24,376 nt of DNA from Oscillospiraceae bacterium. GTDB lineage: Bacteria > Bacillota > Clostridia > Oscillospirales > Oscillospiraceae. Position numbers and translations under genes: made by a program. Numbering within the stretch: the stretch's first letter is position 1; the number at the start of each line of letters is the position of its first letter. Positions 224-24,299 of the stretch are shown piece after piece. Under the pieces are notes generated by a model. It worked only from the letters and a program-made list of their open reading frames with translations, had not been told where the DNA came from and searched no databases. The stretch spans positions 1 to 24,376 of the forward strand of contig JAGBGB010000099.1 in the NCBI GenBank assembly GCA_017936205.1, written 5' to 3'.

Positions 224-2593
224 TTATTCTGCGTAGCTTACAAGCTCTACGGTATAGCCGGCGGCACGGAGGCCGTCCAGCAGACCGCCGTCGGCAAGGA
301 GATGTGCCAGACCTACGGCATAGAAAACGGTCTTGCCGCTGCTCAGATAGCCCTTGGCGGTTTCGATCATTCCCTGATCACGGTCTGTGGACATGGCATT
401 CCAGTACTCCTCAAGGAGAGCCTTTTCTTCTGCGGTGGCATCAGAGGGAATGCTCATGCTGTCTACCATAGCGGTCTTCAGGGCTGCTTCGTCCCCTTGG
501 CACCACATCGCATACAGCTCCTCTACCTCGCGGATGTACTCGCTGCGAGAAGATGCCAGAACAGATGCCAGCAGGCACTGCTGCAGCTCATCGGAGAAGC
601 CGGTGAGCATCTGCATTTGGGATTCCATGCTTTCCACATTCAGGATCTCCTTGCCTGCCTTCTCAGCCAGCTCCAGCAGTCTCATATCCATGCCCTTGTC
701 TGCGACCAAGGTCTTCTGTCCTGCAAGCATAGCATTGGCAATGGTGGTTTCCCACATAGAGACCTTCATGAGCTCCGCAGTGGCGTTATACTCGCCGCAA
801 TACTTCAGATACCTTACAGCAGCATCATACACTTCCTCATCCAGATGGTCAGCTGCAGTGGTTCCGTCTGTGTACAGCATCATGGAGGCGATCATCTGGG
901 CGAAGTTCTCGTCCTCTGCCATAGCCTCTGCACTCTTGTTCATGTCGAATTCCACTGCCAGTGCATCTGCTGCATCGAAGGCGGTGTAAACCTCCTGAGG
1001 CAGGAAGGCAGTCTTCTCGTCGCCTACATGGATGGTACCCAGGAGCCAGAGCTCGTTACCGCTCTCATCGGTCACACGATAGAACAAAGGCGTGGCTTTC
1101 TCTTCCGGTTCAGCCTCAGGAAGGGCTTCCTCGGTGATCTGCCCATAAACAGTGGGATCACAAGCATCGAAGCCTCCGTAGATCTGCTGACTCAGCACAT
1201 AGTTTGCACCCTCAATGGTGTGAACGCCCTGGAATTCCACGCTGTAGGAGCTGGGCAGCCGGGTATCCTTGTCAATGCCCATATAGCCCTTGAGCTCCTT
1301 GTGCTCGTAGGCAGAGGCGCTGTCGTCCAGAACAGTGTTGTCACCGAAGATGTCCTGCATGGTCATGGACTTGAAGTAGTTCAGGCAGTCCTCGTTATCA
1401 GAGGTAAACTCCAACAGATAGCCTTCTCCCAGATCATGGAGCTCAGCACCTGTGAGCCATTCGCCGGTAGAAAGGTACTCGGTGAAAATGTTGTACATCC
1501 CTTCGCTGTAGCTTGCAGCATCCAGAGCACCTTCGTCGGACAGCTCACCGTTGACATAGTAGCTGTAATTGCCCTTAGCGAACTGCTCCTCGGTTACATA
1601 GGTCTGCTGTCCGTCCTGGGTGACTTCCGTAATATTGTTGCTGATCTTTGCAACATAGCTTGCACCCTCGCCATATTCTGCGGCAGCGGTGCTGGTCTGT
1701 GCTGCATAAGCCGCAGCCTGACTGCTAACGACCTTCATAAACTGGGTGCTCTTGGCAGTGGAGGCATACAGGTTGAAGGTTGCCTGCTCCAACAGACGGG
1801 GAGCCTCTACATCACTGAGGAGGGTATAATCTGCTGCATCTGCGGGGGCTTCGGCAGAAAGACTTGCCTCTGCCTGAGCATCAATGACGGTCTTGTAGCT
1901 GACGGTAACCTCTGCTGCGCCCTGAATGTAGGAGGCAGAGTAGCGCATTTCTACAAAGGTGCCGTTCTCGATCTTGGCAGAAGCCTCTGCGCTGATCAGC
2001 TCGGCATAGTCTGCTGCGACCCAGCTCTCCAAAGCAGTCGGCGCAGAGAACTTCAACAGGGTAGAAATGCCGCTGTTGATGGTTTCTACTTCACCGAAGT
2101 TTGCAGCATCGAAGAGGCACAGGGGGATCTGACGGGCAAGGTAGTCCTCGTCATTGGTTTCTTCCTTGTGCTTTGCCTCGCCGAAGGTAGCATAGGTCAC
2201 ACCGGACAGATACTGCTCCGTGTAATCAAAGTCAGACAGATAGCTCTCGTCGCTGAAGGTCAGCTTGCCTTCGATCTTAGCAAGGAGCTCCCCTTGCAGA
2301 CCCTCATAGATGGCAGTAGCCTTGTCTTGACGGCTGTAGCTTTCTCCGTTGACGGTATAGCCCTCTTCCGCTTCGATGTCCATGTGGACGGCAGTGGCTT
2401 CCAGCAGAGCTTCACCGGCCTGAGCAAAAAGCTCCTGCTCCGTAAGCTCACCCTGGGTGGTAGGCTCCGTAGTCTCTGTGGGAGCTTCAGAAGGAGCCTG
2501 TGTAGTCTCTGTAGGCTCTGTGTCTGCTCCGCAGGCTGTCAAGCTCAGAAGCATAGCTGCAGCCAGCAGAAACGCGATCCATTTTTTGAACAT
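224..2593 (-). CDS. TraB/GumN-family lipoprotein with a long N-terminal extension
   Basis: A 789-residue predicted lipoprotein. The start chosen is the ATG at 2593, preceded by AAAGAAGGAAAC; it gives a signal peptide ending in the lipobox LTAC (Cys21). A longer frame upstream lacks these features and overlaps the promoter. After an acidic T/E/P-rich linker, residues ~45-500 form two regions of similar style, rich in beta-strand and alanine, resembling lipoprotein domains of unknown function. Residues ~503-789 are a TraB/GumN domain: the early motif GTIHVG and the late motif YAVGLAHL are both present. TraB/Tiki-like proteins are known or proposed metal-dependent proteases, but the substrate here is unknown. 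The domain is at the extracytoplasmic face if the lipobox is used. It is transcribed alone, divergent from the surface protein gene. The TraB assignment is firm; the role of the N-terminal part is unknown. Confidence 0.88.
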   Translation of the reverse strand: MFKKWIAFLLAAAMLLSLTACGADTEPTETTQAPSEAPTETTEPTTQGELTEQELFAQAGEALLEATAVHMDIEAEEGYTVNGESYSRQDKATAIYEGLQGELLAKIEGKLTFSDESYLSDFDYTEQYLSGVTYATFGEAKHKEETNDEDYLARQIPLCLFDAANFGEVETINSGISTLLKFSAPTALESWVAADYAELISAEASAKIENGTFVEMRYSASYIQGAAEVTVSYKTVIDAQAEASLSAEAPADAADYTLLSDVEAPRLLEQATFNLYASTAKSTQFMKVVSSQAAAYAAQTSTAAAEYGEGASYVAKISNNITEVTQDGQQTYVTEEQFAKGNYSYYVNGELSDEGALDAASYSEGMYNIFTEYLSTGEWLTGAELHDLGEGYLLEFTSDNEDCLNYFKSMTMQDIFGDNTVLDDSASAYEHKELKGYMGIDKDTRLPSSYSVEFQGVHTIEGANYVLSQQIYGGFDACDPTVYGQITEEALPEAEPEEKATPLFYRVTDESGNELWLLGTIHVGDEKTAFLPQEVYTAFDAADALAVEFDMNKSAEAMAEDENFAQMIASMMLYTDGTTAADHLDEEVYDAAVRYLKYCGEYNATAELMKVSMWETTIANAMLAGQKTLVADKGMDMRLLELAEKAGKEILNVESMESQMQMLTGFSDELQQCLLASVLASSRSEYIREVEELYAMWCQGDEAALKTAMVDSMSIPSDATAEEKALLEEYWNAMSTDRDQGMIETAKGYLSSGKTVFYAVGLAHLLADGGLLDGLRAAGYTVELVSYAE

Positions 2594-2627
2594 TATGTTT
2601 CCTTCTTTCCTTTTAGAATCATGAAGT

Positions 2628-2656
2628 ATTCTATCATTGCAAAGAAGAAAAGTCAA
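2628..2656 (-). promoter_or_regulatory. Promoter of the TraB lipoprotein gene
   Basis: On the minus strand, TTGACT (2656-2651), a 17-bp spacer and TAGAAT (2633-2628) lie about 35 bases before the ATG at 2593. The match to the housekeeping consensus is 5/6 and 5/6. Confidence 0.7.
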
Positions 2657-2737
2657 GGATAATATTACAGACTGTTGTCTTTACAAGAACAAACGTATCT
2701 CTTCGGAGGACAACTGTATTATTTTGTTTTCCTGATA

Positions 2738-2766
2738 TTGACAAGCATTTTTTTACATGGTAAAGT
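2738..2766 (+). promoter_or_regulatory. Promoter of the secreted repeat-protein gene
   Basis: TTGACA (2738-2743), a 17-bp spacer and TAAAGT (2761-2766), about 80 bases before the ATG at 2849. The -35 box is perfect and the -10 box is 4/6. No other gene lies in the interval. Confidence 0.65.
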
Positions 2767-2848
2767 AGTAAATAAGAATAAGGTCGAAGACTTTTCTCGG
2801 GAAAAATCTTGGTTTTATTTGCTATTTCTGATACAGGAGGAGATTTCT

Positions 2849-5530
2849 ATGAAGCGTTCCCCAAAACAAAAGCTGCGAAGCTGTTCCCTTCGGCTCTTGA
2901 GTCTTGTGCTGGCGGTAGTGCTGCTTACAAGCTGCATCCCCCCGATCCTCGCCGCAACCCCCTCATCCACAGCCAACGCAAGTGCAACTCTGGCGTATAC
3001 CCTCAATGGTCTGCCCTTAGGCAGAGCCATTCAGAACTTCTACGTAGGTGCCACCTATGTGTACATCACTCAGAGAGTGGATGCAACCACCTACCTATCC
3101 CGCTTGCAGATCAATGGAAAAACTGCCACCTATGTTGACCGCATGACCTTCACCAACTGCGGTCACGGCCAGTCCCTGGACTTCTACACCTACGGTGGAA
3201 AGGAGTACTTCTACATGGGCTGTAAGGCGGAAACTGCCACCACCTACAACTGGTCTGTGCAGGTAGCCCGCTTGCAGTATCAGGCAGGAAAGACCTATGA
3301 CTATACGGATCTGAACCGTATGTCCTACATGAACTATGCCAATAAATCCGCCTCCCGCTTGGGAACCACCTATCGTGTGGCCTGCGGTGTCAACGGCAAC
3401 TATACCATTTTCCGCATCCAGACCGAGGAGGGCACTGTGACCTACTCCGGCTACAACACCAACAAGCTCAACGCCCTGCTGGATGCCAGCAAGTCTGTGC
3501 GGATGGACAGCGCCGATGCCAAGGCTGCTTGCTCCTTCTCCTTCACCCAGAGCGGTACGGGGATCATCCGTCCCAACGGATCCTTCCAGGGCATTGATAT
3601 GTCCTCCACCAAGAGCATCTACCTCTCCGGCGGTGGTCATGGAGATACTCCTCAGATTGCTCGTATGAACTCCTCCGGCAGCTATCTGAAGCTGATCAAG
3701 GTTACGAATGTTGGCGCTCTGGAGATTGAAGGTGTGCAGTGCAAGCGTGGTAATGTATACTTCGTCATCGTCCCCGGCACCACTGCTGCAGAGAAGAAGG
3801 ACTACCATAAGATCTATTATATTAAGGAAAGCACCTTCGGCATTACCCACACCATCAGTAACATTGCCGGCAAGGCTGCTACCTGCACCTCCACCGGTCT
3901 GTCCGACGGAGCCAAGTGTACCACCTGCTCCCAGCTCTTGGATGTGCAGGAGGTCCTGCCCAAGCTGGCACACACTGTAGTAGATGTTGCCGAAGTCCCT
4001 GCCACCTGTACCACGGAGGGCACTACCGCGGGTACCAAGTGCTCTGTGTGTAATACCATCCTCAGCGGCTGCACTACCGTTGCTGCCACAGGACATACGG
4101 TACAGGAGATCCCCGGCGTGGAGGCAACCTGTACAGACAACGGTGTGACTGCAGGCTCCAAATGTACCACCTGCGGGCTCATCCTCAGCGGCGGCCAGGT
4201 CATTGAGGCAACAGGCCACAAGGTCATAGAGGTTCCCGCTGTGGAAGGAAACTGCCTAACCGAGGGCAGAACTGCCGGAACCAAGTGTGAGGTTTGTGAT
4301 GTCATCCTCAGTGGCTGTGAGGTCATTGAGGCAGCCGGACACAGTGTGGCGGTGATCCGTGGAACCCCTGCAAGCTGTCTGAATTCCGGTCTGTCTGACG
4401 GAGAGATCTGTGAGCTCTGCGGACAGGTGCTGAAGGAGCAGGAGATCCTGCCCCGACTGGGCCATGATTACAGCTATGTGAACAACGGCGATACCCATAC
4501 CGCCTCCTGCAGCCGCTGTGATAAGGTCTCCACCACTGCCCACAGCTACGAAGCAGGTACTTGTATCTGCGGCGCAGCACAGCAGACAGATGCCACTGTA
4601 GACAGCAGTATCGTGATCAATCATACTCTGAATCTGGCAAGTGATATTTCTGTAAACTATGCAGTCAAAGCAGAACTTTTGAAGGATTATGTAAACCATC
4701 GTTTGGTATGTGAGATTCCTGTTTACGAAGGACACACCCAAGTAGGCAGCACAACCGTGACTCTTGCACCTGTTCTGAATGGCAGCTATTATTACTACAC
4801 CCTGACCGGTCTGACCGCAGTGCAGATGGGTGATGTGGTCGAAGCCAAGCTCCATATGGAGAAGAACGGTGAAGCCTTTGTTTCCAGCATCGACAGCTAC
4901 AGTGTGGCTCAGTATGCCTACTCCCAGCTCAACAAAGAAGGCACCTCAGAGGCTCTGAAGAAGCTGTGTGTAGACCTGCTCCGCTACGGCACAGAGGCAC
5001 AGCTTTACAAGGGCTACCGTGAAATGGATTTGGTAGATGCTGTTCTGACCCATGAGCAGGCAGCATACGCTTCTGATTTGAATGCTGTTTCCTTTGGGAA
5101 CAACAACCTGACCCTTGCCGATCTGGATAACCCTGTGATCAGCTGGGTGGGCAAGGCTCTGGACTTGGATTCCAAGGTAGGTTTGAAGTATATTTTTGAC
5201 ACTGCCAACTACAGCGGCAGAGTGGAAGACCTGTCGTTAAAATTGAGTTATGTAAACCACGAAGGAAAGACCGTAACAGCAGAGATCAAGACTGCAGAGG
5301 CCTATGGAAACAGCGAAGGTCGTTATGCCTTCACCTTTAACGGCTTGCTGGCAGCTGAACTCCGCACCGTAGTGGATGCAGCCATCTATGAAGGAGATAC
5401 TCAATTGTCTCAGACCCTCCGCTACAGTGCCGACACCTACGGCAACAACAAAACCGACCAGCTCCTGACCCTGTGCCGTGCTCTCTTCGCCTACTCCGAC
5501 ACCGCAAAAACCTACTTCGTAGGGAAATGA
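2849..5530 (+). CDS. Secreted surface protein with five 41-residue CxxC repeats
   Basis: An 893-residue exported protein. The ATG at 2849 follows an excellent AGGAGG at 2835-2840; the open frame continues upstream to 2675 but without a signal peptide there. Residues 1-36 are a signal peptide; both LTSC (Cys29, lipobox-like) and ILA-A (Ala35, signal peptidase I) could be used. Residues ~45-330 are Tyr/Thr/Gly-rich and probably beta-structured. Residues ~344-545 hold five tandem 41-residue units of the form ATC-x(5)-G-x(4)-KC-x2-C, ending in a His-containing linker. Residues ~588-893 contain two related modules, each ending near YGTEAQLY or FAYSDTAKTYF, a type common in secreted proteins of gut Clostridia. 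No LPXTG signal and no catalytic motif was seen. An extracellular binding or adhesion role is inference. A hairpin terminator follows at 5546. Confidence 0.85.
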   Translation: MKRSPKQKLRSCSLRLLSLVLAVVLLTSCIPPILAATPSSTANASATLAYTLNGLPLGRAIQNFYVGATYVYITQRVDATTYLSRLQINGKTATYVDRMTFTNCGHGQSLDFYTYGGKEYFYMGCKAETATTYNWSVQVARLQYQAGKTYDYTDLNRMSYMNYANKSASRLGTTYRVACGVNGNYTIFRIQTEEGTVTYSGYNTNKLNALLDASKSVRMDSADAKAACSFSFTQSGTGIIRPNGSFQGIDMSSTKSIYLSGGGHGDTPQIARMNSSGSYLKLIKVTNVGALEIEGVQCKRGNVYFVIVPGTTAAEKKDYHKIYYIKESTFGITHTISNIAGKAATCTSTGLSDGAKCTTCSQLLDVQEVLPKLAHTVVDVAEVPATCTTEGTTAGTKCSVCNTILSGCTTVAATGHTVQEIPGVEATCTDNGVTAGSKCTTCGLILSGGQVIEATGHKVIEVPAVEGNCLTEGRTAGTKCEVCDVILSGCEVIEAAGHSVAVIRGTPASCLNSGLSDGEICELCGQVLKEQEILPRLGHDYSYVNNGDTHTASCSRCDKVSTTAHSYEAGTCICGAAQQTDATVDSSIVINHTLNLASDISVNYAVKAELLKDYVNHRLVCEIPVYEGHTQVGSTTVTLAPVLNGSYYYYTLTGLTAVQMGDVVEAKLHMEKNGEAFVSSIDSYSVAQYAYSQLNKEGTSEALKKLCVDLLRYGTEAQLYKGYREMDLVDAVLTHEQAAYASDLNAVSFGNNNLTLADLDNPVISWVGKALDLDSKVGLKYIFDTANYSGRVEDLSLKLSYVNHEGKTVTAEIKTAEAYGNSEGRYAFTFNGLLAAELRTVVDAAIYEGDTQLSQTLRYSADTYGNNKTDQLLTLCRALFAYSDTAKTYFVGK
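3878..4492 (+). repeat. Five in-frame 123-bp tandem repeats (CxxC units)
   Basis: The first conserved cysteine codon of each unit lies at 3884, 4007, 4130, 4253 and 4376, an exact 123-bp period with no length change. Units share ATC/GNC/ASC, then a TxG turn, then a C-x2-C pair except in the last unit, which also has C-x2-C (CELCG). The units have diverged in sequence, so they are not a recent duplication. Confidence 0.9.
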
Positions 5531-5590: not shown

Positions 5591-5804
5591 GTCAAATTCC
5601 GATTTTCCGCACAGTTTGATGTATCGCTGCGTAGGGGCGCGCATTGCGCGTCCGGTTCATGGCGTAACGCCATGAACACAAAAACAACCGAAAATGATGT
5701 AATTTCTCCAAAAAACGAAACATTTTTCACAACCACCAATTCTTGGTGGTTGTCGGACGCGCAATGCGCGCCCCTACGAATGGTACGATGAATCGGAATT
5801 TGAC
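5591..5804 (+). repeat. Foldback repeat, copy A (complete)
   Basis: A 214-bp element. The outermost ends are a perfect 14-bp inverted repeat (GTCAAATTCCGATT at 5591-5604; complement at 5791-5804). Inside are 25-bp inverted arms (5630-5654 and 5754-5778, beginning CGTAGGGGCGCGC). Between them lie two smaller hairpins: GTTCATGGCG/CGCCATGAAC (5655-5677) and CAACCACCAA/TTGGTGGTTG (about 5730-5752). Related copies occur at 18416-18626 and 24124-24299. It sits exactly between two converging terminators. It has no credible coding capacity; short frames through it recur only because the repeat recurs. Its size and ends resemble a non-autonomous MITE-like element, but no transposase for it is visible here. 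Confidence 0.85.
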
Positions 5805-5874: not shown

Positions 5875-6312
5875 TCATAAAAGAATGCCTGCAAAGGCTT
5901 GGAAGGCGAGGTACAGACCGAAGGCGCTGATCACAGGAGCCAGCTTGGCTGAGGGGCCGGTGGACAGGCGATCCTGAATGGAGCTAAAGAGCCATGTAAC
6001 CAGCGTAAAGACTGCACCACCAATGAGAGCGATCTTCCAGCACTGTGCAAGACTGACCACTCCTGCTGCCAGAGGCAGAATGCCGAAACTGAGCACCGCA
6101 AACAGAGGAATGCAGATATAGCAGCGGCAAGCACCGGGAGCCAGATAATGATCCAACAGTAAAGCGATCAAGCTAAGCAGAACCATATTGGGAATGCTCC
6201 ACTTAGGAAGAACCATAGCAGGGCCGAAGGTGCGCAGCAGTACCATGGCAGCCATAGCAAGGGTCAGAATAACGACCAGCATAAGGTTGAGGAAATAGGT
6301 TTTCTGTTTCAT
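5875..6312 (-). CDS. Small membrane protein ending the Rnf-like operon
   Basis: A 145-residue hydrophobic protein with about four membrane segments (residues ~8-27, 42-58, 66-90, 94-111) and a hydrophobic C-terminus. The ATG at 6312 is chosen because GGGGAGG lies just before it, inside the end of rnfG; it starts 4 bases after the rnfG stop. A cysteine cluster C62-x-C64-x2-C67 sits at the start of a membrane segment, with another cysteine at 91. It occupies the position where rnfE/rnfA often follow rnfG, but it is shorter than those (~190-200 residues) and I do not see their conserved motifs. I do not recognise the family. It may help RnfC/D/G transfer electrons across the membrane, but that rests only on context. 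Confidence 0.8.
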   Translation of the reverse strand: MKQKTYFLNLMLVVILTLAMAAMVLLRTFGPAMVLPKWSIPNMVLLSLIALLLDHYLAPGACRCYICIPLFAVLSFGILPLAAGVVSLAQCWKIALIGGAVFTLVTWLFSSIQDRLSTGPSAKLAPVISAFGLYLAFQAFAGILL

Positions 6313-6316
6313 CACA

Positions 6317-6916
6317 TCAGCCTCCCCAAGAAGTTGCACCGGAATCCGCATCTGCTCCGGTGACGAAGGCAACCGCAGAGTTCACACTGCGGGCAATGGC
6401 CTTCGAGGTTACGGTTGCGCCGGTAATAGCATCTACCTCTACCCCGTCCCCGGTCTCTGCTTCCGCAGTTGCACCGCTGAAGGCATCTTCGCCGGTGGTC
6501 TTAATAGACACATCGCCGCCGGTATTCAGGAACTGTGCAAGGAATTCGTGGTCTGTCAGAGCCTCGGCGCCCAGTCCGCAGGTTTCGGACAGGTCAGTAA
6601 CGACGAGACCTGTAACCTTCCCTCCATTGTTGACACCTATCAGCATGGAGATCTCGCCGGCGTAGCCATAGACAGCGGTCTCGATGACAAAGCCATTGTC
6701 TGCCTTGAAAACACGGCGAATATTTGCATCCTCACCGGTATAGGGCTCCTCTGTAAATTCGCTGCTGCCGGGAAGAAGGGTCTGGGAATGCCACAGGAGA
6801 TTCATAGCGTCCTCGATTTCGCCCTTGCTCTTCAAGCCGTAGGACAGACCGAAGAGAATGGCAGAGCATAGGACGATTGCCAACAGGGGGATCAAAACAT
6901 TTTTCAGGGACTTCAT
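6317..6916 (-). CDS. rnfG: RnfG-like FMN-binding electron transfer subunit
   Basis: A 199-residue protein with one N-terminal membrane anchor (residues ~7-27) and an extracytoplasmic FMN-binding domain. The flavinylation motif is clear: D162-A-I-T-G-A-T-V-T170-S, matching the SGATxT site of RnfG/NqrC, where ApbE attaches FMN to the last threonine (Thr170 here). In Rnf and Nqr complexes this subunit carries covalent FMN between membrane and peripheral subunits. Its ATG overlaps the stop codon of rnfD by four bases (ATGA), so the two are translationally coupled. The ApbE enzyme needed to load the FMN is encoded three genes upstream in the same operon. A second SGAT at residues 147-150 has no Thr at the acceptor position. 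Confidence 0.88.
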   Translation of the reverse strand: MKSLKNVLIPLLAIVLCSAILFGLSYGLKSKGEIEDAMNLLWHSQTLLPGSSEFTEEPYTGEDANIRRVFKADNGFVIETAVYGYAGEISMLIGVNNGGKVTGLVVTDLSETCGLGAEALTDHEFLAQFLNTGGDVSIKTTGEDAFSGATAEAETGDGVEVDAITGATVTSKAIARSVNSAVAFVTGADADSGATSWGG

Positions 6917-7860
6917 GCTTTGGCACCTCCTTTTTTCACGCCGAAGCGTCTGGGGGCAGTATAACGGTCAAGGATCCACACCAGCGCATTCATCAGAAGG
7001 ATGGCGTAGGTCACACCCTCCGGGAACAGACCGTAGTAGCGGAACAATACCGTCAAGCCACCGCAGCCCAGACCGTAGAGGATCTGTCCCCAAGCCGTAG
7101 CCGGAGAGGTAGCATAGTCCGTTGCCATGAAGATGGCACCCAGCATCACACCACCGGACAGGAGGCTGTACAGCATCCACTGTACGGGAGCATCGGTTTT
7201 GTGGAAGATCAGGGTCAGCACTGCCACGGCTCCAAGGTAAGCTAAGGGGATCCGAGGTGAGATGACCTTCCTTACCACCAGATAGAAGCCGCCCAGAAGC
7301 AGGGCCAGAGCAGACAGCTCCCCGATAGAGCCGGGGCAATTGCCCATAAACATATCAAGAAGACTTTCTTCAGGCAGTGCGGGCATGACCATGTGGTGCA
7401 GAGGGGTGGCAGCAGTTACGCCGTCTACGCCCAGGGCAGCATAGCGAACCATTCCCACAGGATAGATCAGCATCATAAAAGCTCTTGCCAACAGTGCAGG
7501 GTTGAATACATTCTGTCCCAAACCGCCACACAACAGCTTAACCGCTAAAATGGCAAAGACGCTGCCCACGCCTGCCAGCCAATAGGGAACCGTAGAGGGC
7601 AGGGTCATGGCCAGAAGCAAGCCTGTAACCAAACAGGAGCAGTCGATCACCGTATTCCGCCTGCGGGTCAGCAGGCAGTACAGATACTCCGTTGCTACAG
7701 CACAGATCATGCAAACACCCACAACCGCCAGTGCACGCAGACCCAGTGCCCACACTCCCACCACAAGGGCAGGGAGCAGAGCAATGACCACATCCAGCAT
7801 CAGTCGGCTGGTGCGGAAATCCCCACGAATGTGAGGAGAGGAAGCTACAGTCAGTTTCAT
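6913..7860 (-). CDS. rnfD: RnfD-like membrane subunit
   Basis: A 315-residue integral membrane protein of the NqrB/RnfD family. The start is the ATG at 7860 (MKLTVASSPH), which overlaps the rnfC stop as ATGA; the upstream extension of the frame only mirrors rnfC. Family features seen: the N-terminal SSPHIR, the segment GQNVFNPALLARAF, and the motif DGVTAATPL, which corresponds to the FMN-threonine site of RnfD (SGATPL in others). About nine or ten hydrophobic segments run through the protein. In Rnf it holds FMN and riboflavin and passes electrons between RnfC and RnfG while coupling to ion movement. Here RnfA, RnfB and RnfE are absent from the operon, so its electron partners are uncertain. 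Confidence 0.9.
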   Translation of the reverse strand: MKLTVASSPHIRGDFRTSRLMLDVVIALLPALVVGVWALGLRALAVVGVCMICAVATEYLYCLLTRRRNTVIDCSCLVTGLLLAMTLPSTVPYWLAGVGSVFAILAVKLLCGGLGQNVFNPALLARAFMMLIYPVGMVRYAALGVDGVTAATPLHHMVMPALPEESLLDMFMGNCPGSIGELSALALLLGGFYLVVRKVISPRIPLAYLGAVAVLTLIFHKTDAPVQWMLYSLLSGGVMLGAIFMATDYATSPATAWGQILYGLGCGGLTVLFRYYGLFPEGVTYAILLMNALVWILDRYTAPRRFGVKKGGAKA

Positions 7861-9149
7861 TTTTGTTTCGCCTCCCTTAGTAATTTTTTGCCCAGACGGA
7901 AGGTTTCGGTCAGGGGCAGCTTGCCGGGACAGGTAAAGGAGCAGCAGCCGCATTCGATACAGTCCAGCACATGGAGCCGATCCAGCTCCCGTACCTTCTG
8001 TGCCTTGGTGAAACGGTACAGATACAGAGGCTGCAGCTTCATGGGACAGACCCCAACGCACTTGCCGCAACGGAGGCACACGGGATTCTCTGCGGCACCG
8101 TTCAGATCCTTCAGCAGGCAGAGAATGGAGTTGGTGGCCTTGACCACAGGGACGCTGAGATCCTTCTGTGCAATGCCCATCATGGGGCCGCCACTGATCA
8201 CACGCTCTGTCCGATCATGGAGTCCCCCTGCCGCCTCAATGAGATCGTGGAAGGAAGTGCCGATACGGACAATAAAGTTCTGGGGCTCAGAAATAGCCTC
8301 ACCGGAAATGGTCACAATTCTCTGGGTCAGGGGCTTACCCAACCGCACCGCCCGATAGATGGCAGCGAAGGTGGATACATTAAATACCGCACAGCCTACA
8401 CTGACCGGGAGCTGTCCGGGCTGAACCTCCCGACCGGTCAGGGCTTGGATCAGCTGTTTCTCTGCCCCCTGGGGATAACGGGTAGGCAGAACTGCCACCT
8501 CGATCTCCGGGAACTGCTTGGACAGCTTCCGCAAGCCCTCAATGGCTGCAGCCTTGTTGTCCTCTACCGCCAGAACCAGACGGTTAGGCTCTAAGAGCTC
8601 CTTCAGGATCTTCATGCCCTCTAACACATGCTCAGGCTCTGTCCGCAGCAGGGAGTCATCGGCGGTGATATAGGGCTCACATTCACAGGCATTGGCAATG
8701 AGGGTATCCACCTTCCCCATAGCGGAAAGGGCCTTCACATTGCCGGGGAAGGCAGCACCGCCCATACCTACGATGCCCGCATCCCGAATGGTGTTCAGGA
8801 TCTCCTCGCGGGAGGTAGGGATGTTCCCGGGTTGAACCGTATCCCGATAATCGTTCTCAATCACTACCGCCATAGCCTGTCCCAAGGTAGGATGGGGACG
8901 GCTCTCAATGGCAAGGACCGTACCGGAAACAGAGGCGTGTACGGGAACGCACAGACCCTCACCGTCACCGATCTTCTGTCCCAACAGTACATGATCTCCC
9001 ACCTTGACCAGAGGGGTACAGGGTGCACCGATGTGCTGCTGCATGGGGATCACTACCTGCTTGGGGGTAATGGTGCGGAATTCTGTGATTTTCGTGGACA
9101 TTTCTTTGTTATATTTGGGGTGGATGCCGCCAAAAAACAGATGCTTCAT
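7857..9149 (-). CDS. rnfC: RnfC-like iron-sulfur/NADH subunit
   Basis: A 430-residue cytoplasmic-face subunit. The N-terminal ~110 residues are the RnfC barrel-sandwich region (GDHVLLGQKIG, then ASVSGTV). The flavin/nucleotide-binding SLBB/Nuo51-like core follows, with GIVGMGGAAFP and NACECEPYITAD. Near the C-terminus are two 4Fe-4S motifs, CLRCGKCVGVCP and CIECGCCSFTCP. In Rnf complexes RnfC is the NAD(H)-reacting subunit. The length (~430) matches clostridial RnfC. Its start follows GAGGTGAAAGC and lies 23 bases after the apbE stop. With no RnfB here to deliver ferredoxin electrons, NAD(H) is the most likely electron donor side; this is inference. Confidence 0.93.
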   Translation of the reverse strand: MKHLFFGGIHPKYNKEMSTKITEFRTITPKQVVIPMQQHIGAPCTPLVKVGDHVLLGQKIGDGEGLCVPVHASVSGTVLAIESRPHPTLGQAMAVVIENDYRDTVQPGNIPTSREEILNTIRDAGIVGMGGAAFPGNVKALSAMGKVDTLIANACECEPYITADDSLLRTEPEHVLEGMKILKELLEPNRLVLAVEDNKAAAIEGLRKLSKQFPEIEVAVLPTRYPQGAEKQLIQALTGREVQPGQLPVSVGCAVFNVSTFAAIYRAVRLGKPLTQRIVTISGEAISEPQNFIVRIGTSFHDLIEAAGGLHDRTERVISGGPMMGIAQKDLSVPVVKATNSILCLLKDLNGAAENPVCLRCGKCVGVCPMKLQPLYLYRFTKAQKVRELDRLHVLDCIECGCCSFTCPGKLPLTETFRLGKKLLREAKQK

Positions 9150-9172
9150 GCTTTCACCTCAATTTTTATAGA

Positions 9173-10201
9173 TTAAGTTCGAATCAATTCCCGGAAGCCG
9201 TGGCTGTAGAAGCGTTGCCCTTGGGCATCGATCCACAGCGCTTCGGCTCCGTATTGCTCCAGCAGCTGCTGCCCTTCCTCTTGGGGCAGCAGGAACAGTG
9301 CCGTTGACAGGGCATCTGCAATGCCGGAGTCCTTGCAGACCACGGAAACCGACCGCCAGTACTCCGAGGGGTACAGGGTCGCAGGGTCGATAATATGATG
9401 GTACAGCTTCCCCTCTACCACATAGGCACGCTGATAGTCCCCACTGGTAACTACGCTGCCCTCCTTCAGGTACAGGGTGTGGACATAACGCTCTCCCCCA
9501 TCCGGATCCTGGATCCCGATGACCCAGGGGCTTCCGTCTTCCTCCTTAGGTCCCGTAGCGCACACATTACCGCCTACACTGATCAGCAACCCCGGCTCTG
9601 TTTCCTCTGCTACCCGTTGGACAGCCCAGCCCTTGGCAATGGCACCTACATCTAACTTTAGCAAAGGATCGGAGAAGAATACCGTTCCGGCTTCTTCATC
9701 TAATACAACAGACTCGGGATCTGTGTGCAGACTTGCCTCCTCCAACGCCTCCCGGGACGGGAGGGTGGCAGAGGTGGGATCGTCGATCCCGTCGCTGCGA
9801 GCCTCATGCCACAGGGACAAGACACTGCCCATGGCAGCATTGACCTTGCCCTTAGTAGCAGCATACAGCTCCTTGCAGTCTCGGAGCAGGTGCAGAATGA
9901 CGGGATCTACCTTTATGGGATTGATGGCAGCCTGATCATTCAGGGTCTTCAGATTGTTCATGCCCTCGTATTCGTTGTAAATGTCGAAGAGCTGATGGTA
10001 CACCAGCAGCTTGTCATGGATCTGCTGTGCCCTTGCCTGAAAGACTTCCTCACTTTCTGCCCGACCCACAATGGTAGTCAGGGTGTCAAAGAGGCTGAGG
10101 AAGGTGGCTGTATACTGCTTCTGCTCCGACTGTTGGGGCAGGAGGCCGCAGCCACTGAGAAGGATACACAGGCTCAGGCTCAGGCAAAGGAGCTTTTTCA
10201 T
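9173..10201 (-). CDS. apbE: ApbE-type FAD:protein FMN transferase, lipoprotein
   Basis: A 342-residue lipoprotein: the signal peptide ends in the lipobox LSGC (Cys18). ApbE signatures are present in order: FDTLTTIVG near the start, DVGAIAKGWAV, ISVGGNVCATG, and HHIIDPATLYP, followed by a DALSTALF segment. ApbE moves FMN from FAD onto threonines in targets such as RnfG and RnfD, outside the cytoplasm. Both are encoded just downstream, so the operon carries its own maturation enzyme. The same family is called FmnB in the Listeria extracellular electron transfer locus. The start ATG overlaps the stop of the upstream lipoprotein gene as ATGA, implying coupled translation. Confidence 0.94.
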   Translation of the reverse strand: MKKLLCLSLSLCILLSGCGLLPQQSEQKQYTATFLSLFDTLTTIVGRAESEEVFQARAQQIHDKLLVYHQLFDIYNEYEGMNNLKTLNDQAAINPIKVDPVILHLLRDCKELYAATKGKVNAAMGSVLSLWHEARSDGIDDPTSATLPSREALEEASLHTDPESVVLDEEAGTVFFSDPLLKLDVGAIAKGWAVQRVAEETEPGLLISVGGNVCATGPKEEDGSPWVIGIQDPDGGERYVHTLYLKEGSVVTSGDYQRAYVVEGKLYHHIIDPATLYPSEYWRSVSVVCKDSGIADALSTALFLLPQEEGQQLLEQYGAEALWIDAQGQRFYSHGFRELIRT

Positions 10202-11256
10202 GCTTCCAGAGCCTTCAGGATCAAGGCTTGGAAGCCGCCGATGGCGATGGTTACAGAGGCCGCCAGATCTGCATCTGTGGGAGCAGTCTTTTCATTCACG
10301 GCAATGCCACTGACCTCTTGTGCAGTCTTCCCTGTTACATAGGCGGCAAAGGAGGCAGCCTGCTCATTCCACTCCGCAGTAGCTCCTGCCCATGCCACCA
10401 TACCGTAGTCGGGGCCCAGCTGATTCTTGGTCAGCATGGGAGCCGTCAGGTCCGTGGTAATGGTGCCGCTCTGATCAAAGCTGACCTTTGCTTGGAGGCT
10501 GTCAATGTAGCAGCTGGTGATCACGCCATCCTTTTCTGTCAGAGCAGTCACATCACAGTCCAGCTGTGCAGTTCCCTCTGCATCAGCGGTAGCGCTGACA
10601 CTGCTCTTGGCGGAATTGATGGAGGCAAGCTTCAGAGTATCTCCCCCCTGCGCTCCAAGATGCTTGGCATTGGCAACGGCTTCTTCGATAGCAGACACAT
10701 AGCCGCCTAAGTAAATAGTAGCGGTAGAAGCCAGATCGGAGCCCTCGGGAGCTCTGCCCTGCTCGTTGACCGCACCCTCTCTCAGCTCTTCTACGGTTTT
10801 GCCCACCGCATACTGCGCCAGAGCAGCAGCCTGCTCGTTCCACTCGTACTTGGCGCCGCCCCAGGCGACCATACCATAGTTCTCTCCCAGCTCATTCTTA
10901 GTGGAAATGGGAGCAGTAAGATCTGTCGTAATGGTTCCCGTGGCATCAAATTCGATCTTAGCAGAAATACCGTCAATGATGCAGTCCTGAATGATCCCAT
11001 TGTCGTCTACCAGAACAGCGACCATGGTCACATCGTAGGCTGCGTTTACGGCATTTTCGCTGTCTGCGGCATTTGCAGTAATGGCGAGTCCGGTTTTCAG
11101 GGCTCCTTCTACAGAGGGGGTAGCTTCTGTAGGCTGTGTTCCCTGGGTGGTGCTGTGATCCTCAGTGCAGTTGTAGACCACAGGGGTGCCCACGCAGCCA
11201 CACAACAGGCTCAGGGACAGCACAAGGCTCATTAGAATTGCGAGTCTTTTCTTCAT
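10198..11256 (-). CDS. Lipoprotein with two ~156-residue FMN-binding-like repeats
   Basis: A 352-residue lipoprotein: signal peptide with lipobox LCGC (Cys21), a short T/E/P-rich linker, then two homologous domains at residues ~55-195 and ~212-352. Each repeat contains a TGTITTDLTAP segment, an LGxxYGMVAW segment, an EWNEQAA segment and a terminal segment (DLASTATIYLGG and DLAASVTIAIGG). I recall proteins of this look in Firmicutes near ApbE and Rnf-like genes, but know no experimentally defined function. The terminal segments lie where D-x2-SGATxT flavinylation motifs occur in FMN-binding domains, but the acceptor position reads Tyr182 and Ala338; the nearest threonines are Thr180 and Thr336. 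It could be an extracytoplasmic flavin or electron carrier. The start follows GGAGGAACC. Confidence 0.82.
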   Translation of the reverse strand: MKKRLAILMSLVLSLSLLCGCVGTPVVYNCTEDHSTTQGTQPTEATPSVEGALKTGLAITANAADSENAVNAAYDVTMVAVLVDDNGIIQDCIIDGISAKIEFDATGTITTDLTAPISTKNELGENYGMVAWGGAKYEWNEQAAALAQYAVGKTVEELREGAVNEQGRAPEGSDLASTATIYLGGYVSAIEEAVANAKHLGAQGGDTLKLASINSAKSSVSATADAEGTAQLDCDVTALTEKDGVITSCYIDSLQAKVSFDQSGTITTDLTAPMLTKNQLGPDYGMVAWAGATAEWNEQAASFAAYVTGKTAQEVSGIAVNEKTAPTDADLAASVTIAIGGFQALILKALEA

Positions 11257-11302
11257 ACATGGTTCCTCCGAATTTATTCTTTTATCTTTACTCGTCCTTC
11301 CG

Positions 11303-11830
11303 TTAAGAGGGAGGAGAAAAGCGACCGATCAGGGAGTGAGAGGACAGGATCCTCAGGACTCCCCCTGCTGCAGCCCCGGTGGCAAAGCCCGTGAACAGGG
11401 ACACCAGCAGCAAATAGGGCAAATATGCCCCGATATAAACCGTCTGCATCAGCAGCATGGCAGCAAGGATCTGCCCAATGTTATGAGCTGCCGCTCCCAA
11501 GATGCTGATACCGTATAGTGAAAAGCAAGGCAGCCTTCGGGAAAGCAGCATGATCCCCAAGGACAGCAGTCCCCCTGTCAGAGAGAACAGTAAACCGCTG
11601 ATGCCGCCACCGAATATAGCCCCCATGAAGCAGCGCAGTGCCACAATGGCAAGGGTCTCCCCTGCCGGAAGCAGCCAGATCGCCACAAGGGTCACAATAT
11701 TGGCAAGTCCTAACTTGACCCCTGGTAGTGGAATCAACAGCTGCAGGGGCAGGAAGCGCTCTGTATAGGATAGAGCCAAAGCAAGAGCAAGCAGAATGGC
11801 ACAAAGCGCCAGCTTTTTCGTTCCCTTCAT
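11303..11830 (-). CDS. Gx transporter family membrane protein (EetB-like)
   Basis: A 175-residue protein with about five membrane segments and the family stretch PLPGVKLGLANIVTLVAIWLLP. This family is often annotated as heptaprenyl diphosphate synthase component I, a name probably inherited from gene neighbourhood. It commonly pairs with a NusG-II protein, as here, where the two genes are 4 bases apart. From memory, the EetA and EetB proteins of the Listeria/Enterococcus flavin-based extracellular electron transfer locus are this pair. A role in membrane electron transfer or quinone/flavin handling fits the operon but is inferred. Confidence 0.85.
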   Translation of the reverse strand: MKGTKKLALCAILLALALALSYTERFLPLQLLIPLPGVKLGLANIVTLVAIWLLPAGETLAIVALRCFMGAIFGGGISGLLFSLTGGLLSLGIMLLSRRLPCFSLYGISILGAAAHNIGQILAAMLLMQTVYIGAYLPYLLLVSLFTGFATGAAAGGVLRILSSHSLIGRFSPPS

Positions 11831-11834
11831 CCCA

Positions 11835-12218
11835 TCACCCCACTACAAAGTCCACAGCAGCCTTGCCCACGATCCGCAGCTCCAGCCCGTTGGGCAGGCA
11901 TACAATGCTCCGCCCCGGCTGACTGATCCAGCCACTGTGAACGCAGTCCCCTCCGGGACAGTCACTTTGGGTAATGGCAGCCCGACCATCTTTCAATACA
12001 ATAGTATTGTGATAGTCCCCGGAGATCTCAATGGTCTCCTGTGTGCTTAGGGGAAGCTCTCGCAGAAGTGCTCCATTCTGATAGATCTGCACAACAGCCT
12101 CCTGTGAAGATGGATGTTCAGGCAGGAACAGTGCCCCTACTCCTAACGCCAAAACAAGAACCAGCCCAATAGCGATCCAATCCCCTTTTCGGAAGGAGAG
12201 TTGTATTTTTTTGTTCAT
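11835..12218 (-). CDS. NusG domain II membrane protein (EetA-like)
   Basis: A 127-residue protein with one N-terminal membrane helix (residues ~14-32) and an extracytoplasmic NusG-II domain. The family signature is clear: SDCPGGDCVHSGWI with Cys87 and Cys92, then SIVCLPN with Cys107. The start is the ATG at 12218, preceded by GGGGAGAAGGG; the longer upstream frame runs into the promoter and lacks a ribosome site. It is the first gene of the eight-gene operon. Despite the name, the family is not the transcription factor NusG; it is usually found next to Gx-transporter genes. The three cysteines could be redox-active or bind metal, which I cannot tell from sequence alone. Confidence 0.86.
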   Translation of the reverse strand: MNKKIQLSFRKGDWIAIGLVLVLALGVGALFLPEHPSSQEAVVQIYQNGALLRELPLSTQETIEISGDYHNTIVLKDGRAAITQSDCPGGDCVHSGWISQPGRSIVCLPNGLELRIVGKAAVDFVVG

Positions 12219-12478: not shown

Positions 12479-12594
12479 GTAGGGGCGAAGCTGTGTCTTC
12501 GCCCGTGGCACTACGATTTTGAACCATACTCAAAAAGAACGATGTTCTTTGCCATTCGGTAGTTTCTCGGGCGAAGACACAGCTTCGCCCCTAC
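12479..12594. repeat. Foldback repeat of a second type (element D)
   Basis: Perfect 27-bp inverted arms lie at 12479-12505 and 12568-12594 (beginning GTAGGGGCGAAGCTG), with 62 bases between. Each arm is itself a hairpin (GGGCGAAG/CTTCGCCC). The arms start with GTAGGGGCG like copies A-C but then differ, and the interior is unrelated. A 12-bp direct repeat, TAAATCCGAATT, lies on both sides (12404-12415 and 12662-12673). The element fills the gap of about 360 bases between the operon promoter at 12322 and the hairpin at 12687; no gene was seen in that gap. Confidence 0.8.
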
Positions 12595-12741: not shown

Positions 12742-14712
12742 TCAGCGATCCTCGTAGAAGACCTTCATGCCCTTGTAGGTCATGTAGGTATCCAGCTTGG
12801 AAACCAGCTCCATAGGAGCGTGCATGGACAGGACGGGGACACCTGCATCAACGGTCTCGATGTTGCGGTTTGCCATATAGCAGGCAACGGTGCCACCGCC
12901 GCCCTGGTCTACCTTACCCAGCTCGCCGGTCTGCCAGATCACATCGTGCTTGGCGAAGAGGGCACGAACATAGCCCATGACCTCAGCAGCTGCATCGGAG
13001 GAGCCGGACTTGCCACGGGCTCCGGTGTACTTGAAAATACCGGTGCCGTAGTTGATACGGGTGTTGTTCCGACGGTCGCAGGTCTCTGCATACAGGGGAT
13101 CGAAGGCATTGCTTACATCCGCAGACAGACAGAAGGAGCCCTCGAAGCAGCGGCGGAGGCTTGCACCGGTGGCTTCGCACAGATCAGCCATAAAGGTCTC
13201 GAAGTAGTCACTCTGCATACCGGAAATGCCGTTGGAGCCAACTTCCTCCTTGTCAGCCAGAACGCAAACAGCAGTCTTGGCAGGAACACCCAGCTCTAAC
13301 AGGGGCTTGAAGGATGCGAAGGCACATACACGGTCGTCATGACCATAGGCAGCAATCAAGCTACGATCAAAGCCTACCTCACGGGCAGGGCCTGCGGGAA
13401 CCATGGTCAGCTCAGCAGTCAGGAAGTCCTCTTCCACAATGCCGTACTTCTCATTCAGCAGGCACATGGTAGCGAACTTAATACGGTCAGCACCCTCGTC
13501 CTCGGGCAGGGGCTTGGAGCCAAGGAGAATGTTCAGATTCTCACCGGTGATGCCCTCAGCCATGGTCTTACGCATCTGGTCGGCAGACAGATGGATCAGC
13601 AGATCGGTAACACAGAAAATGGGATCGGCGGGATCCTCGCCAACGGTCACATTGATGACGGATCCATCCTTCTTCACCACAACACCGTGGATGGCAAGGG
13701 GTGTGGTAGTCCACTGATACTTCTTGATACCACCGTAGTAGTGGGTCTTGAAGTAAGACATCTCGCTGTCCTCATACAGGGGATTGGGCTTCAGATCCAG
13801 ACGGGGAGAGTCAATGTGTGCGGCACAAATATGAGTACCCTCATTGAGAGACTTCTCGCCGATAACAGCGAAGATCACAGCCTTCTTGTGGTTGTTGCCG
13901 TAAACACGGTCACCGGGCTTCAGCTCCATGCCGGGAACCAGAGGCTTGAAGCCGTGCTTTTCTGCCTCTGCAATGGTCCATTCCACTGCCTCTCGCTCGA
14001 TCTTGCAGTTGGAGATGAAGTCCATATACTCCTTGCAGTAGGGCTCCATGGCGGCCAGATCCTCGGCGCTGATGCGGTCATAGCCGTTCTTGGGGGCGTT
14101 CAGCAGGGTCTTGCGCTGTTCCTCGTATTTCTTTTCTTCCATTTTGAAAACTCCTTTCAAAAAATCAGTACATTGTTTTGAAAACTGCTCTAACTCCATA
14201 TCAGAGCAGAGGGTATGGTCTGTCATAGCAGAAAATTCCTCGCTGCTTTTCTGCGCACGGAGCCGTAGTCGGGCGTAATCCTCCGTGATACCGTCTCGCT
14301 TCATGAGCCTCTGAATACGGCAGTCCTCCGAGGCAGTCACTGCAACGGTCACATCACACAGCTCACCGAGCCCACCTTCAAACAGGGCGATGGCATCAAT
14401 GGCAGCATAGGCAGCCCCTTGGATCCGTTGGAGGACTTCCTCCTTCACATAGCGGTGGGTGATACGGTTCAGCAGGAGCAGCTTCTCCTCGTTCTGAAAA
14501 ACGATACCGCCCAGTGCCTTCCGATCCAGACAGCCATTTAAGAAGGCTGTGGGGAAGTTGGCTTCCAACTCAGCCAGCATGGCTTTGTTTTCCTGCAGAA
14601 GCTCATGATACAGAGCATCGCAGTCAACACAAAGGAAGCCTAATTCTTCCGCCGCCTTTAGGAGCGTGGTCTTTCCGCTTCCGCTTCCACTTGTAATTCC
14701 AAGGATCCTCAT
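12742..14712 (-). CDS. Fusion of dephospho-CoA kinase and M18 aminopeptidase
   Basis: One open frame of 656 residues without an internal stop. Residues 1-190 look like CoaE, which phosphorylates dephospho-CoA in the last step of CoA synthesis: P-loop GSGSGKTT, CDALYHELL, and DRKALGGIVF; the length is near that of a free-standing CoaE (~195). Residues 191-656 are a metal-dependent M18 aminopeptidase of usual length (~466): AAHIDSPRLDLK, DKEEVGSNG, LSADVSNAFDP and a terminal HAPMEL supply the expected zinc ligands and catalytic acid. Met191 (ATG at 14142) has its own AAAGGAG site, so a free aminopeptidase of 12742-14142 may also be made, perhaps as the main product. The start ATG at 14712 overlaps the ywlC stop as ATGA. 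The kinase half is somewhat divergent (NRITHRYV where others have HP). Confidence 0.85.
   Translation of the reverse strand: MRILGITSGSGSGKTTLLKAAEELGFLCVDCDALYHELLQENKAMLAELEANFPTAFLNGCLDRKALGGIVFQNEEKLLLLNRITHRYVKEEVLQRIQGAAYAAIDAIALFEGGLGELCDVTVAVTASEDCRIQRLMKRDGITEDYARLRLRAQKSSEEFSAMTDHTLCSDMELEQFSKQCTDFLKGVFKMEEKKYEEQRKTLLNAPKNGYDRISAEDLAAMEPYCKEYMDFISNCKIEREAVEWTIAEAEKHGFKPLVPGMELKPGDRVYGNNHKKAVIFAVIGEKSLNEGTHICAAHIDSPRLDLKPNPLYEDSEMSYFKTHYYGGIKKYQWTTTPLAIHGVVVKKDGSVINVTVGEDPADPIFCVTDLLIHLSADQMRKTMAEGITGENLNILLGSKPLPEDEGADRIKFATMCLLNEKYGIVEEDFLTAELTMVPAGPAREVGFDRSLIAAYGHDDRVCAFASFKPLLELGVPAKTAVCVLADKEEVGSNGISGMQSDYFETFMADLCEATGASLRRCFEGSFCLSADVSNAFDPLYAETCDRRNNTRINYGTGIFKYTGARGKSGSSDAAAEVMGYVRALFAKHDVIWQTGELGKVDQGGGGTVACYMANRNIETVDAGVPVLSMHAPMELVSKLDTYMTYKGMKVFYEDR
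14143..14157 (-). promoter_or_regulatory. Internal ribosome site for a separate M18 product
   Basis: On the minus strand AAAGGAG (14157-14151) lies 8 bases before the ATG at 14142, which begins the aminopeptidase domain (MEEKKYEEQ). These bases also encode the LKGVF that ends the kinase domain. The site decides whether one or two proteins come from this frame. Confidence 0.7.
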
Positions 14713-18415: not shown

Positions 18416-18626
18416 AAATACCGATTTATCGTACCATTCGTAGGGGCGCGCATTGCGCGTCCGACAACCACCAAGAATTGGCGGTTGTGAAAAATGTTGC
18501 GATTTTTGAAAAAAATACATCTTTTTCGGTGTTTTTTGTATTCATGCCGTTCCGCCATGAACCGGACGCGCAATGCGCGCCCCTACGAAGGGGTAAATCA
18601 AACTGTGCGAAAAATCGGAATTTTAC
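18416..18626 (-). repeat. Foldback repeat, copy B (inverted, complete)
   Basis: Same element as 5591-5804 in the opposite orientation. The 25-bp arms are at 18439-18463 and 18563-18587 and are identical to those of copy A. The outer ends are less perfect: AAATACCGATTT (18416-18427) against AAATCGGAATTT (18612-18623). The inner CAACC(A/G)CCAA hairpin is kept, with the base change leaving a G-T pair; the other inner hairpin has one mismatch. It fills the gap between converging genes, and its right end overlaps the stop codon of the AlaX gene (18623-18625). Confidence 0.85.
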
Positions 18627-24123: not shown

Positions 24124-24299
24124 GTAAAATTCCGATTTGTCGAACAGTTTGATTTACCCCTTCGTAGGGGCGCGCATTGCGCGTCCGGTTCATGACGGAA
24201 CGGCATGAACACAAAAACCACCAAAAATGATGTATTTTTTCCAAAAATCGCAACATTTTTCACAACCACCAATTCTTGGTGGTTGTCGGACGCGCAATG
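24124..24299 (+). repeat. Foldback repeat, copy C (truncated)
   Basis: Same orientation as copy A. The left end (GTAAAATTCCGATTT), the 25-bp left arm (24163-24187), both inner hairpins and the first 13 bases of the right arm (24287-24299) are present; then the sequence departs from copies A and B at 24300. The right outer end is missing. The rest of the gap after the lipoprotein gene (24043-24123) holds no feature I recognise. Confidence 0.8.

Follow-up and report, generated by a model that had tools for sequence, protein, structure and literature searches.

A half-Rnf gene set beside flavin-export and lipoprotein genes in an Oscillospiraceae bacterium: a putative NADH-dependent electron export operon

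Gene content and conservation of the operon

The window analyzed here (the whole stretch of 24,376 nucleotides [nt] of an Oscillospiraceae bacterium, contig JAGBGB010000099.1) carries eight genes on the minus strand, running from position 12218 to position 5875, in which three subunits of the Rnf complex stand beside proteins of flavin-based extracellular electron transfer (EET) and a small membrane protein. In the order 5' to 3', the genes encode the following proteins (lengths in amino acids [aa]).

11835..12218, minus strand: NusG domain II protein (EetA-like), 127 aa (PF07009, 3.4e-26)
11303..11830, minus strand: EetB-like membrane protein, probable flavin adenine dinucleotide (FAD)-export energy-coupling factor S (ECF-S) subunit, 175 aa (PF07456, 1.6e-37)
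10198..11256, minus strand: two-repeat lipoprotein with an FMN-bind-like fold, 352 aa (no Pfam match)
9173..10201, minus strand: ApbE flavin transferase with a lipoprotein-type signal, 342 aa (PF02424, 1.3e-63)
7857..9149, minus strand: RnfC-like NADH-side subunit, 430 aa (TIGR01945, 1.6e-152)
6913..7860, minus strand: RnfD-like transmembrane subunit, 315 aa (PF03116, 3.4e-108; TIGR01946, 1e-85)
6317..6916, minus strand: RnfG-like FMN-bind protein, 199 aa (PF04205, 4.9e-15; RnfG of 7zc6, 2.8e-18)
5875..6312, minus strand: five-helix membrane protein, 145 aa (model with 5 helices and a mean predicted local distance difference test score [pLDDT] of 82.8)

The successive spacings, computed from the coordinates, are 4, 46, -4, 23, -4, -4 and 4 bases, and from them we infer a single transcript. 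An earlier note on this DNA had described eight genes with gaps or overlaps of -4 to 46 bases; coordinates and spacing were both borne out.

That note had also proposed comparing the gene order within the order Oscillospirales. Indeed, the core lipoprotein-ApbE-RnfC-RnfD-RnfG-membrane protein has the identical order in all eight loci in which the membrane protein was found, the window included, and the arrangement thus goes beyond chance. These eight loci come from six genomes of a sample of 394 genomes of the order and from two uncultured Oscillospiraceae contigs. In the same sample, the lipoprotein was found in 47 genomes, among them all 6 that have the membrane protein. Close homologues with a named organism are from Oscillospiraceae, in one case from Clostridia. 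The EetA-like and EetB-like genes are both present in four of the eight loci (the window, L052, L055 and L056). L010 and L011 begin within the lipoprotein gene; in L053 and L054, neither gene was seen within the stretches fetched.

Rnf subunits in the operon and elsewhere in the genome

RnfC, RnfD and RnfG of the operon have Rnf chains as their best solved matches, and their cofactor motifs are mostly kept. RnfC, whose closest solved chains are the RnfC subunits of 9eri, 7zc6 and 8ahx, has both CxxCxxCxxxCP sites and the glycine-rich loop, and cluster and loop motifs are retained in the RnfC of all eight loci. RnfD, aligned to RnfD of 7zc6, keeps the flavin-site region DGVTAATPL; the corresponding search pattern matches RnfD in six of the eight loci, with variants in the rest, and also misses the RnfD encoded on contig C28 of the same genome. 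Unlike an Rnf complex (RnfCDGEAB), the operon lacks RnfA, RnfB and RnfE and has the 145-aa RnfA-like protein instead, its RnfG has three ApbE-type motifs, and ApbE, EetA/EetB-like proteins and a lipoprotein are added. No match to RnfA or RnfE was found in the eight loci, and none to RnfB except in L055 and L052, where the RnfC frames gave matches of 21 to 22 bits. Eight other loci in which Rnf genes accompany the lipoprotein all have RnfE and RnfA. With neither the RnfA/RnfE pair nor RnfB, the operon does not belong to the Rnf complexes.

The earlier note had stated that RnfA, RnfB and RnfE are missing. This holds for the operon but not for the genome, since a separate, complete rnfC-D-G-E-A-B cluster lies on C28; the operon adds another RnfCDG set, which is divergent. 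The presence of a normal Rnf with six subunits at some other place had been named beforehand as a finding that would speak against the proposal, and C28 encodes exactly that. Its weight is lessened by two observations: the C28 cluster has its own RnfC, RnfD and RnfG, and genome G279 (99% complete) carries the operon but gave 0 matches to PF02508, the Rnf-Nqr family, in the whole genome. The single RnfC match in G279 is the RnfC of the operon. Since G279 has the operon with no RnfA/RnfE-family match, the half-complex can stand alone, and we regard this genome as the strongest evidence that it may function without RnfA and RnfE. The bin to which the window belongs is 72.5% complete and 1.67% contaminated, and absences in it are weak; given this completeness, the argument from absence relies on G279 and other 99% complete genomes.

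It is also conceivable that RnfC, RnfD and RnfG of the operon join RnfA, RnfB and RnfE encoded at the other locus, giving one more Rnf of six subunits that is expressed under certain conditions. RnfA and RnfE are indeed encoded elsewhere in the window's own genome and in four of the five other genomes with the operon, and RnfA/RnfE-family genes occur in all 20 genomes of a set of relatives, own genome included. Moreover, RnfC of the operon is 53% identical to RnfC of C28. But the RnfC proteins of the eight loci form one separate clade (support 100/100), whose sister, with moderate support (85/90), is the canonical RnfC found in the genus to which the window belongs, and the C28 RnfC groups with the RnfC of a same-genus genome (98/94). 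Together with the case of G279, the C28 cluster's own C, D and G subunits and a membrane protein that comes with the operon in 8/8 loci, this makes the hybrid complex improbable. A third RnfC-like gene (L158, G000:C311, 1690-2964; 44% identical) lies on a 4.3-kb contig of the same genome on which no other locus query matched.

Candidate flavin sites and the 145-aa membrane protein

The RnfG of the operon carries three ApbE-type motifs: DAFSGAT (residues 144 to 150), DAITGAT (162 to 168) and DADSGAT (189 to 195). DAITGAT is the usual RnfG site; DAFSGAT and the C-terminal tail GADADSGATSWGG are additional. The codons of the additional motifs, with ranges computed from the gene start, are as follows.

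6467..6487, minus strand: DAFSGAT of RnfG
6332..6352, minus strand: DADSGAT in the tail of RnfG

The substrate requirement given for ApbE is D-x-x-[ST]-G-A-[ST] (PMC12052999), and the extra motifs have this pattern. Among the 120 best homologues, which are close to the window, 117 have the tail pattern D..[ST].A[TS].WG among their final 20 residues. Across 119 aligned homologues, the tail columns are conserved at 99% (D), 97% (S), 98% (A) and 99% (T), with the commonest residue reaching only 38 to 66% at the positions in between; DAFSGAT is exact in 110 of the 119, and its D, S, A and T are each present in 119/119. All 18 distinct sequences of the canonical RnfG type, taken from the own genome and relatives, lack the tail motif. 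In the more distant systems (G185, G097, G226, G067 and G279; L052 to L056), the tail is present and DAFSGAT absent. L010 (4361-5401) and L011 (3694-4767), the most distant pair of systems, have an RnfG with three FMN-bind-like repeats and without the C-terminal tail, its motifs being DAVTGAT or DVVAGAT followed by DIVAGAT twice, in two added repeats. The strict RnfG motif DxxTGAT occurs in six of the eight loci, with variants in the other two, and in all eight systems RnfG offers two or three candidate flavin sites. Nine RnfG-like frames of full-Rnf loci of the order have two strict motifs in 2 cases, one in 5 and none in 2, and none of their printed ends has the C-terminal tail. We found no published description of extra ApbE motifs on RnfG, the consulted parts of PMC10979944, PMC9973259 and PMC8238504 included, and the multi-motif form with a conserved C-terminal tail appears to be new. 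The earlier note had proposed a flavinylated RnfG but had not noticed the extra motifs.

The lipoprotein has two repeats, as the earlier note had said; that note had passed over its altered ApbE motifs, DLASTAT (residues 174 to 180) and DLAASVT (330 to 336). According to PMC12052999, single changes of G to A or A to V in the ApbE motif bring flavinylation down to ~50%. In fold and repeat number, the lipoprotein fits the PplA type, but its motifs are not DxxSGAT, in a comparison made at the level of the type. The altered motifs could be ApbE sites of a new variant, [DE]-L-x-[SA]-x-[AV]-[TS], as part of the joint reading of a new exporter class taken up below, for which we would not quite claim an even chance. 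Five relatives of the lipoprotein (P0123, P0124, P0125, P0127 and P0131) are 508 to 521 aa long, with room for a third repeat.

EetB is described as an FAD exporter that is required for flavinylation (PMC9973259). In the earlier note, EetA and EetB were to help electron flow; on the published account, FAD export for ApbE explains EetB better.

The membrane protein probably starts with the ATG at 6312 rather than the TTG at 6372, and its homologues begin at 6312. The earlier note had called it novel, but of 2596 candidate proteins, 2277 are relatives at E<=0.001, and its likely kinship to RnfA had gone unnoticed. This kinship is drawn from a profile comparison, in which the family profile aligned, at 35% identity across 57 columns, with the two final helices of RnfA (probability 88%, P 3e-6). 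The 7 distant members alone gave 89.7%, the 35 close ones alone 49%, and the controls (RnfE, EetB, RnfD, RnfG, NusG_II, ApbE, reversed sequences and 60 column shuffles) stayed at <=3.3%. Structural matches were weak (Foldseek and VIA). The protein was not matched by PF02508 at the curated cut-off, and 3 of the 35 members matched that profile, with a best E of 0.002. A viral library search with the protein gave nothing at E<=0.001 and a PDB sequence search gave no match. The 35 closest sequences suggested a CxxC pair (C64, C67) as a redox site, but this candidate was rejected: cysteine occurs in only 1/7 and 0/7 of the distant members at these positions, and no cysteine column is kept throughout the family once they are included. 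The membrane protein is thus probably a shortened RnfA relative without the conserved cluster cysteines; it probably cannot hold the [2Fe-2S] cluster of RnfA, and the role given to it below is a presumed one.

Electron donor, proposed route and genomic setting

A Listeria-type EET locus comprises Ndh2, DmkA, DmkB, EetA, EetB, PplA and FmnB. The operon resembles it in the EetA-like and EetB-like proteins, the two-repeat FMN-bind-like lipoprotein and ApbE, an order of genes that is also present in several clostridial Ndh2 loci (L089-L094, L160, L161), but differs in having RnfC, RnfD, RnfG and the membrane protein in a genome without an Ndh2 match. As for DmkA and DmkB, no UbiA or polyprenyl synthase was found among the window genes scanned. 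With no Ndh2 match, the operon is not a member of the Listeria-type EET loci. The earlier note had reported Ndh2 as missing, and a clostridial Ndh2 query indeed found nothing in 6/6 operon-bearing genomes or in two further genomes of the same genus, thus in 0 of 8 genomes of the family, although a very divergent Ndh2 could escape the query and the own genome is incomplete. As a positive control, the same query found Ndh2 in all four genomes of the class picked for having it.

We read the surroundings of the lipoprotein gene at 40 loci in 40 other genomes. Ndh2 was present at 12 loci, a full or near-full Rnf at 8 and neither at 20. DmkA or DmkB accompanies Ndh2 at all 12 loci, and both do at 8. 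The near-full Rnf cases are L168, without an adjacent RnfB, and L176, where RnfC lies beyond the stretch. Two of the 20 remaining loci carry DmkA alone, one of them at a contig start. EetA and EetB are both present at 11 of the 12 Ndh2 loci, 8 of the 8 Rnf loci and 1 of the 20 others, ApbE adjoins the lipoprotein gene at 34 of the 40, and RnfCDG with the membrane protein was found at none. From this comparison, it appears that different electron donors, the half-Rnf presumably among them, have been combined with one and the same flavin-export/lipoprotein module. These loci and the Ndh2 query speak for the earlier suggestion of an Rnf-derived replacement for Ndh2; in outline, though not in every part, the note's interpretation holds. 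L168 (G009:C12) is from a same-genus genome and has lipoprotein-ApbE beside a divergent Rnf (C, D, a weak G, E and A), followed by EetA-EetB; a weak RnfB match lies further away.

Two further groups of gene clusters can be compared. In the NQR/RNF-like systems of Meheust et al. (2021), found mainly in Actinobacteria and the candidate phyla radiation, NqrB/RnfD is described as fused to a PF00175 NAD-binding domain (PMC8238504). As in the operon, the path there is a single one of the RnfD/NqrB type, has an FMN-bind protein of the RnfG/NqrC type and is presumed to be one-way (PMC8238504), but the RnfC of the operon is a separate subunit, and its RnfD matched PF03116 and not PF00175. Without this fusion, the operon is not of the NQR/RNF-like class. 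Second, for 572 genomes of Clostridia, eetB is reported to lie close to Rnf genes (PMC9973259). These clusters share with the operon an eetB beside rnf genes and apbE; the operon has no RnfB, by whose presence that survey, following the definitions of PMC8238504, recognizes Rnf. RnfB-based definitions, as far as the text of PMC8238504 gives them, would class the operon as neither Rnf nor NQR/RNF-like. We found no description of RnfCDG without A, B and E beside EetA/EetB in the literature consulted, whose supplementary tables may list such clusters.

In our judgment, the operon rather probably encodes a half-Rnf that works as an NADH:extracytosolic acceptor oxidoreductase and is linked to the machinery of flavin-based EET. 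NADH would reduce RnfC, with its flavin mononucleotide (FMN) and two 4Fe-4S clusters, and electrons would cross the membrane via the flavins of RnfD, opposite to the usual direction in Rnf. They would arrive at RnfG, for which we predict not a single covalent FMN but two or three, the final one on the C-terminal tail; from there they would pass to the lipoprotein or to an outside acceptor. EetB, perhaps with EetA, would export FAD and ApbE would attach FMN; the RnfA-like membrane protein would probably have a docking or scaffold role and not be a [2Fe-2S] electron path. In Rnf, RnfA and RnfE are described as carrying electrons outward, and RnfG, RnfD and RnfC as returning them to NAD+ (PMC12174285). 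If RnfA, RnfE and RnfB are absent, the outward leg is gone and a ferredoxin-driven cycle would not be possible from the operon alone. Since only C, D and G remain, and extra outside flavins and an export lipoprotein are added, reversed flow would be the simplest reading. From the gene content we infer the electron direction, the flavin occupancy, the acceptor and the role of the membrane protein.

That the canonical RnfG-RnfD-RnfC leg runs inward to NAD+ (PMC12174285) would also fit a flow from outside electrons (reduced flavins, humics or partner cells) via RnfG and RnfD to NAD+. But the partners of the module are those of Ndh2-based electron export, and the potential of NAD+/NADH is too low for most outside donors, so that we consider inward flow very improbable. 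If electrons do leave the cell, the half-Rnf might supply an enzyme or repair system close by on the extracytosolic side (a reductase with its gene elsewhere, or the removal of oxygen or peroxide) and not an outside mineral or shuttle. FMN-bind proteins are reported to serve several extracytosolic systems (PMC8238504) and a reduced multi-FMN protein to react with oxygen (PMC10339131); yet no further reductase family was matched among the eight genes, and other lineages have this same partner module together with Ndh2 and DmkA/DmkB. This use is unlikely, if a more serious candidate than the hybrid complex or inward flow.

Several observations weigh against NADH-driven electron export by the half-Rnf. 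Half of the other lipoprotein loci (20/40) have neither Ndh2 nor Rnf nearby, and no terminal reductase was found in the operon. The altered lipoprotein motifs lack the glycine, and that of repeat 2 also the alanine. Several motifs per RnfG are not unique to the half-Rnf (2/9 full-Rnf frames), and the WGG kept in the RnfG tail lies outside the ApbE motif and may point to docking as the function of the tail. Flavinylation of the RnfG and lipoprotein motifs is a prediction from sequence. The operon is patchy, the membrane protein being absent from the 19 other genomes in the set of 20 relatives, and the five operon genomes other than G279, own included, have RnfA and RnfE elsewhere, where hybrid use would be possible.

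A further step would be to see here a new class of NADH-driven exporter, with a self-sufficient RnfC-RnfD-RnfG and a remnant RnfA-like subunit, a multi-flavin RnfG wire with a C-terminal "flavin tag" and a lipoprotein with variant ApbE sites; we put this forward tentatively, as nearly but not fully an even bet. NADH-driven export through the half-Rnf would give a testable electron-export route for a family without an Ndh2 match in 8/8 genomes searched. Judging by the operon, the NADH leg of an ion pump may be excised and put to new use in the place that Ndh2 takes in other lineages, next to the same flavin-export and lipoprotein module. If true, a C-terminal ApbE motif would give the engineered flavin tag a natural forerunner.

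The operon lies on contig C199 of a 2.46-Mb bin of 364 contigs. An origin from bin contamination was considered and is ruled out for C199, which is genuine for the genus because its release factor 1 (RF1) and gene order agree with same-genus genomes. Full-length RF1 proteins from 10 genomes of the genus share 82 to 89% identity with RF1 of C199, with partial matches of 85% and 93% in 2 more, and coaE_M18-sua5-RF1 stand together in 5/5 same-genus stretches fetched (L013 ends inside coaE_M18). None of the operon genes was found in these five stretches; the operon is an additional, patchy unit of the genome. The coaE_M18 gene of the window (12742-14712, minus strand) is a fusion of CoaE (dephospho-CoA kinase) to an M18 aminopeptidase in one 656-aa frame, and in L012, L014, L015 and L017 matches span both domains. 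On the other side of the operon, an 810-aa frame (224-2656, minus strand) has a C-terminal TraB/PrgY/gumN domain, with a long frame without Pfam match opposite it (302-2662, plus strand). A 951-aa frame (2675-5530, plus strand), also without Pfam match, has repeated segments like ATCTxxGxxxGxKCxxC. Palindromic elements with the ends GTAGGGGCG (5630-5778, 12479-12594, 18440-18586 and 24164-24172) flank the operon on both sides and occur elsewhere in the window; GTAGGGGCG has 7 matches versus 0.14 expected, the arms of the two palindromes that were measured are 25 and 36 nt long and 100% and 92% complementary, respectively, and the elements are probably small repeats.

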